Source: Candidatus Bipolaricaulota bacterium (GTDB lineage: Bacteria > Bipolaricaulota > Bipolaricaulia > M55B111). Taken from it: DNA of 39,371 bases. The position numbers were made by a program, and so were the translations under genes. Below, in pieces: positions 694-12,606 of this stretch (positions within the stretch are counted from its first letter, which is position 1; every line of letters begins with the position of its first letter). Location of the stretch: NCBI GenBank assembly GCA_018334915.1, contig JAGXLB010000008.1, forward strand, positions 1 through 39,371. Reading direction: 5' to 3'. Below the pieces are notes generated by a model. That model was not told the origin of the DNA and made no database searches. It was given only the letters and a program-made list of their open reading frames with translations.

Positions 694-832
694 GTTGGCT
701 CTGTCTGTCCTCTCACAGGGTAGGCATTTTTCAACAATCAAACCTTTCACCATTATAAAACTGCTTTACGATTTTGGACCTGAAAACTTCAACCCAGCAA
801 AACTTCAGCCTGAGGAGACAATTTATAATAGT

Positions 833-980
833 CGATAGCCAGGGTTTTCGAACCCTGATGTAATCAAAGGTCTAAGTGTTTTGTCCTTTACTTTGGTAAT
901 ACTAACGTGGAATCTACCGAAGAAGATAATTCTACACTTCAACCAACCAGGACAGCGGGCCTAGAAAGGCCCGCCTATCG
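833..980. repeat. 148-bp structured repeat module, copy 1
   Basis: Terminal CGATAG/CTATCG; hairpin CAGGGTT-TTCG-AACCCTG; inner stem CTTTGGTA/TACCGAAG; long-range GGTCTAAGTGT/ACACTTCAACC (9/11); hairpin GCGGGCC-TAGAAA-GGCCCGC. Confidence 0.8.
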
Positions 981-1028
981 CAATAGGGTGAAAGCCACGA
1001 TCAAACCTAATTGCCATTAAACACCATT

Positions 1029-1176
1029 CGATATCCGGGGGTTTCTACCCCCGGTGTAAGCCCGGGTTGAAGTGTTTGGTTGTTTGCTTTGGTAGTAATT
1101 ACGCTAAACATAACAAAGGATATATCTATACACTTCAACCACCCACAACAGCGGTGCTAGAAAGCACCGCCTATCG
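1029..1176. repeat. 148-bp structured repeat module, copy 2
   Basis: Same length and same stem offsets as copy 1: CCGGGGGT-TTCT-ACCCCCGG; GGTTGAAGTGT/ACACTTCAACC (11/11); CTTTGGTA/TAACAAAG (7/8); GCGGTGC-TAGAAA-GCACCGC; ends CGATAt/CTATCG. Confidence 0.8.
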
Positions 1177-12557: not shown

Positions 12558-12584
12558 CTATCGGCTGGGCGCGGGGACCCAGCC
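12558..12584 (+). repeat. REP-like hairpin copy D
   Basis: CTATCGGCTGGGCGCGGGGACCCAGCC; perfect 7-bp stem GGCTGGG/CCCAGCC. Confidence 0.65.
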
Positions 12585-12606
12585 TGCTTTTCATTTTCAT
12601 CAAGAA

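Follow-up and report, generated by a model that had tools for sequence, protein, structure and literature searches.

A dispersed 148-bp doublet of GATAG-tagged hairpins in Bipolaricaulota, probably a mobile element of the REPIN/BIME kind

RAYTs are HUH/Y1 nucleases related to the IS200/IS605 transposases. REPINs are inverted doublets of REP sequences whose spacer can form a hairpin and in which compensatory changes occur (PMC3116915, Bertels and Rainey 2011). Published search models give the REP tag as GTAG or GTGG (PMC6006769), and some RAYTs can recognise bases of the loop (PMC8266576). REPs have been described to accumulate near the rayt gene, and their copy number usually exceeds 100 per genome, a value that is usual and not strictly defining (PMC2817692).

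The stretch of Candidatus Bipolaricaulota DNA analysed here (39,371 bp, hereafter the window) carries two copies of a 148-bp element that resembles REPINs (PMC3116915) and the GTAG 'HH dimers' (PMC3733652). Shared features are inverted tagged hairpins with the tags outward, a conserved spacer length, the capacity to form a larger hairpin, compensatory changes, intergenic location and a tie to RAYTs. However, the tag is GATAG in the element and GTAG or GTGG in REPINs and HH dimers, and the host family of the element yielded no GATAG REPtron (a RAYT gene with hairpins of the same tag at its sides). Its copy number, in the tens per genome, is below the REP-typical value, while REPINs reach hundreds, and it differs from canonical REPINs in having a conserved stem as its spacer and half-units added on both sides. 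BIMEs of enterobacteria, Stenotrophomonas and others (PMC2817692) are likewise composites of oppositely oriented REPs with tandem additions in variable numbers, but BIMEs alternate, whereas in the element left-type units repeat upstream and right-type units downstream, each keeping its own orientation. TIRYT/TIRtron repeats and the 'atypical secondary structures' of tnpA-Y1 subclasses also combine Y1 genes, flanks without GTAG and non-autonomous copies elsewhere; by the motifs stated in those papers, as distinct from their full sequence tables, their feet or motifs are CnGA (class 3) and GGGGWSAS (TIRs) as opposed to CGATAG (PMC3733652, PMC6006769).

The element thus has the inverted pair of tagged hairpins and the intergenic dispersal of a REP/REPIN, and lacks the GTAG/GTGG foot and the high copy number. 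Since the foot is CGATAG in nearly all copies, we did not file it as a canonical GTAG REP; because the architecture agrees but tag and copy number depart from what is canonical or usual, we regard it as a variant class that would work like a REPIN. We did not encounter a GATAG class in the REP literature compared, so the initial statement that the modules matched no recognised family was a fair one.

The window copies are each exactly 148 bp long and align without gaps at 74% identity, with a start-to-start distance of 196 bp (Table 1). The two modules, and the identical offsets of their stems, had been proposed from the sequence alone, and both were borne out by the alignment. The compensatory changes described for the two hairpins are also present, as A9-T24 to G-C and T13-A20 to G-C in hairpin 1, and as G127-C138 to T-A and C128-G137 to G-C in hairpin 4.

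Table 1. Coordinates in the window of the two copies of the 148-bp element, their parts and the left flank
Feature	Position	Strand	Evidence
Copy 1 of the 148-bp element (GATAG REP doublet)	833..980	+	covariance-model match, 159.6 bits; repeat-family detection; fold
Copy 2 of the 148-bp element	1029..1176	+	covariance-model match, 157 bits; fold
Copy 1, left REP-like unit: tag CGATAG and hairpin, loop TTTTCGA	833..858	+	GATAG with 7-bp hairpin at 834; helix 2
Copy 1, right REP-like unit, minus-strand reading CGATAGGCGGGCCTTTCTAGGCCCGC	955..980	-	8-bp hairpin at 979; helix 6
Copy 2, left REP-like unit; tag CGATAT, one base off	1029..1054	+	alignment
Copy 2, right REP-like unit, minus-strand reading CGATAGGCGGTGCTTTCTAGCACCGC	1151..1176	-	8-bp hairpin at 1175
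Copy 1, spacer of 96 bp, a long imperfect stem	859..954	.	helices 3-5
Copy 2, spacer of 96 bp	1055..1150	.	helices 3-5; inverted repeat detected
95-bp left flank of copy 1	738..832	.	common to copies on G000:C287 (L058) and G003:C64 (L042)

The sequence-only reading had made its case depend on further copies in the host genome and its relatives and on significant covariation among them, and both were found. A covariance model built from eight copies had roughly twelve matches in the own genome (assembly G000, 2.9 Mb in 316 contigs, 84% complete). Of the five further genomes of the host family, four contained copies, whereas 34 genomes from other families of the class had none. The window modules are therefore two among many copies of a dispersed repeat and not an isolated pair. 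Matches to the right-end hairpin numbered 14 in the own genome and 21 in the relative G003. When the right-hand-end pattern was scanned across 84,980 species genomes, the hosts were Candidatus Bipolaricaulota assemblies with isolate names starting GSL and Tobar, which from the names alone we take to be salt lakes, together with one Nitrospirae, one Deltaproteobacteria and one Schekmanbacteria genome. The same end pattern had no matches in IMG/VR. Bipolaricaulota are little-studied bacteria, and we found no paper on REPs in this group.

The fold of the 148-bp module is four-way and cloverleaf-like. A 6-bp stem (CGATAG/CTATCG) closes it, terminal hairpins lie at positions 7-26 and 123-142, and a long arm has stems at 27-29/120-122, 37-47/102-112 and 59-66/83-90. 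In the ideal drawing, zero bases are unpaired at the four-way junction where the arms meet. Compared with dinucleotide shuffles, folding gave z scores of -4.6 (copy 1) and -6.2 (copy 2) as RNA, and of -4.6 and -6.3, respectively, as DNA. The likeness to a tRNA cloverleaf that had been suggested was not supported, as ARAGORN found zero tRNAs in the window. Twenty-one copies align ungapped over exactly 148 columns, with a mean identity of 71% and a minimum of 55%, and 90.0% of their paired cells hold standard pairs. Both sides were changed in 65 cells, compared with 25 ± 5 in column shuffles and 5-15 with slid partners, and the terminal hairpins were richest in compensatory changes (22 cells in one, 33 in the other). 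This covariation shows that pairing has been kept in the family; alone it does not discriminate between RNA and DNA, and palindrome-templated copying errors could be an added source of it.

Evidence for the kind of element came from the matches in other phyla. CGATAG-tagged hairpins were counted at 26-35 per genome in the three genomes of other phyla (G040, G041 and G042), with 0 for the reversed control. Class genomes outside the host family had GATAG hairpins at control level only. The loops in the Nitrospirae, Deltaproteobacteria and Schekmanbacteria genomes read TTTCNA or ATTCTTG, so part of these hairpins share the loop of the element. All seven close plus/minus hairpin pairs in the three genomes have their tags outward (spans of 56, 56, 63, 63, 83, 87 and 111 bp), an arrangement that matches the 148-bp element except for a shorter spacer. 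REPtrons of the GATAG class are present in all three. At locus L107 the order is CGATAGGCAGGGTTTTCTAACCCTGCC, a 154-aa RAYT and GGCGGGACAAGAATGTCCCGCCTATC, with both hairpins near the gene and tags outward, and the GATAG hairpins that flank the RAYTs at L105 and L112 are arranged in the same way. The L105 and L107 proteins exceed the NCBIfam cut-off for REP_Tyr_transpos; the L112 gene is without an intact ORF of 120 aa. Hairpins of the GATAG class are thus associated with RAYT genes in one genome each of three other phyla.

Taken with the dispersed distribution, this makes it likely that the 148-bp module belongs to the mobile DNA elements of the REPIN/BIME kind and is non-autonomous. In it, two REP-like units, each with a CGATAG tag and a 20-nt hairpin with the loop TTTCNA, stand inverted with tags outward around a 96-nt stem spacer. 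As the spacer also forms a long stem, the whole doublet folds into the four-arm structure on single-stranded DNA. The analogy with known systems suggests that a RAYT would bind the tag and the loop where single strands are exposed, make a cut close by, and then transfer or copy the doublet to intergenic sites. That these particular copies are moved by a RAYT, and by this route, is what we infer from the analogy. No target-site duplication above chance was found at the copies (mean of 1.17, compared with 1.31 with shuffled partners), as expected for Y1 enzymes. On the other hand, no clean empty site was identified for the element; this counts against the reading, as do the GATAG tag, the low copy number, the lack of a GATAG-flanked RAYT in the searches of the host family and the GCAG hairpins around the RAYTs of that family.

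The constant length, strong fold and covariation could also belong to a structured non-coding RNA of about 148 nt with several genomic copies, and the sequence TATAAT stands a short way upstream of copy 1, as it does at the L042 and L058 copies. However, a scan around the copies gave no two-hexamer promoter match. Rfam, where a match had been proposed as a check, gave none at the gathering threshold and only chance-level scores below it, the best being 16.4 bits compared with 100 needed. The module is an imperfect palindrome, so the reverse strand folds too and both strands match the covariance model. The strand with the tag at its 5' end shows a TTTCNA-type loop at both ends, in 22 and 21 of 23 copies; the conserved loops of the two ends are mutual reverse complements, and conservation is symmetric under reverse complement. 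This symmetry fits one DNA-binding protein per end better than a single folded RNA. The gene context is also not fixed, with neighbouring genes in all orientations, and the same hairpins flank RAYT genes in other genomes. We therefore consider an RNA very improbable. Of the options left by the sequence-only reading (structured non-coding RNA, MITE or mobile single-stranded DNA substrate), the RNA is unsupported, and the last two are favoured by the dispersed, intergenic and orientation-independent distribution and by the RAYT-type tagged hairpin ends. No ORF of at least 110 aa underlies 27 of the 29 copies, while ORFs of roughly 120 aa overlap the remaining two.

The palindromic form, the length of 148 bp and the dispersal would also suit a classical MITE, derived from a DDE-transposase insertion sequence and bounded by 47-bp inverted ends, and the two 47-bp ends of the element do resemble each other (mean similarity of 61%). 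This origin is less probable still, since those ends are hairpins with a compensated stem and not plain inverted repeats, since the target-site duplication is not above chance, and since no DDE element bounded in this way was noticed in passing. Least probable is a host-domesticated structural DNA site (for example for a nucleoid protein, gyrase or a four-way-junction protein) whose length is fixed by host selection, as proposed for some BIMEs: the constant 148 bp, the pairing retained at 71% identity and the several elements that occupy the corresponding intergenic interval in related genomes would agree with it, but copies per genome are few and decayed copies and half-units are many, and such a role is compatible with a mobile origin.

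The REPIN/BIME-like element also occurs in arrays. Many loci have added left half-units upstream at a spacing of 63-67 bp and added right half-units downstream at a spacing of 80-94 bp. The left and right numbers are unbalanced across loci: L039 has several left half-units and one right, and L035 at 19548 has one clear left and three right. The lengths of a left and a right half-unit sum to about 146, which had prompted the idea that half-units arise by nested insertion of a copy into the centre of another. This origin was set aside because the half-units are unbalanced and the outer halves differ at the junction; single cases may still fit it.

The window holds a tandem pair; on contig C287 of the own assembly and on contig C64 of G003 the element stands alone, preceded by the same left flank of 95 bp. 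The stretches 1683-1925 of L042 and 1278-1519 of L058 match window 738-980, and their surroundings further out are dissimilar. As the flank recurs at otherwise dissimilar loci, a longer composite may also move, and the flank is possibly the outer part of such a unit. Separately, the 738-832 flank and a right flank at 1177-1203 like AAGAATTGAGGTGGTGAAAGAATTGAG were seen to recur at unrelated loci (L042, L058, L055 and L064), and AATTCTTTCACC and GGTGAAAGAATT resemble the outer inverted ends of a longer composite.

The host family has one RAYT gene in G003 and one in G001. None was found in the own assembly (84% complete) or in G002, G004 and G005 (the four assemblies being 70-84% complete), and no GATAG-flanked RAYT was found in the family, also with the L105 and L107 proteins as query. 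A Y1 match in the own genome (C241) was rejected as a RAYT, as it resembles a TnpA of the IS200 type interrupted by a stop codon. The G003 and G001 RAYTs lie amid hairpins tagged GCAG and not GATAG, with 29 GCAG hairpins per 20 kb in L035 compared with 1.2 in shuffles. In favour of a RAYT link, six of the 13 GATAG loci of G003 cluster on its 31.6-kb RAYT contig (P of about 1e-7 if loci were placed at random), and a GATAG half-unit is present on the RAYT contig of G001, which is 3.5 kb long (0.014 expected). Either the RAYT moves GATAG elements too, or the two hairpin families share permissive intergenic regions.

More broadly, GATAG repeats may form a separate RAYT-mobilised class across several phyla. 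In this Bipolaricaulota family its members would have become four-way-junction units of a constant 148 bp, extended by half-units and mobilised in trans by a RAYT with GCAG hairpins around its own gene; we put this forward tentatively, as possible rather than probable. The element extends the REPs by a class whose guide tag differs, RAYT-linked in genomes of three phyla and present in a fourth, the Bipolaricaulota. The GATAG tag and the TTTCNA loop lead to concrete predictions about variation in guide recognition between RAYTs, and the fixed 148-bp length despite heavy drift is a test case for selection of spacer structure for transposition as opposed to host function.

Some minor observations concern RAYT remnants and GCAG repeats. 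A weak RAYT-like fragment (15.5 bits with the L105/L107 profile, two in-frame TGA) lies at G004:C79:7109-7276 (L133) and may be a decayed gene or a chance match. The GCAG REP family is much denser (e.g. GCAGGCTGGGTCCCTGTGCCCAGC) around the RAYTs, at L035:11284-12866 (G003:C76) and at L095 (G001:C118). The window itself has one GCAG-family hairpin at 12562-12587, and two G+C-rich, hairpin-like palindromes, GGGTGGGCTCCAACGCCCGCCC and CTCGAGCGTGGGAGCTCGAG, at 195-285, about 550 bp upstream of copy 1, are similar to GCAG REPs.
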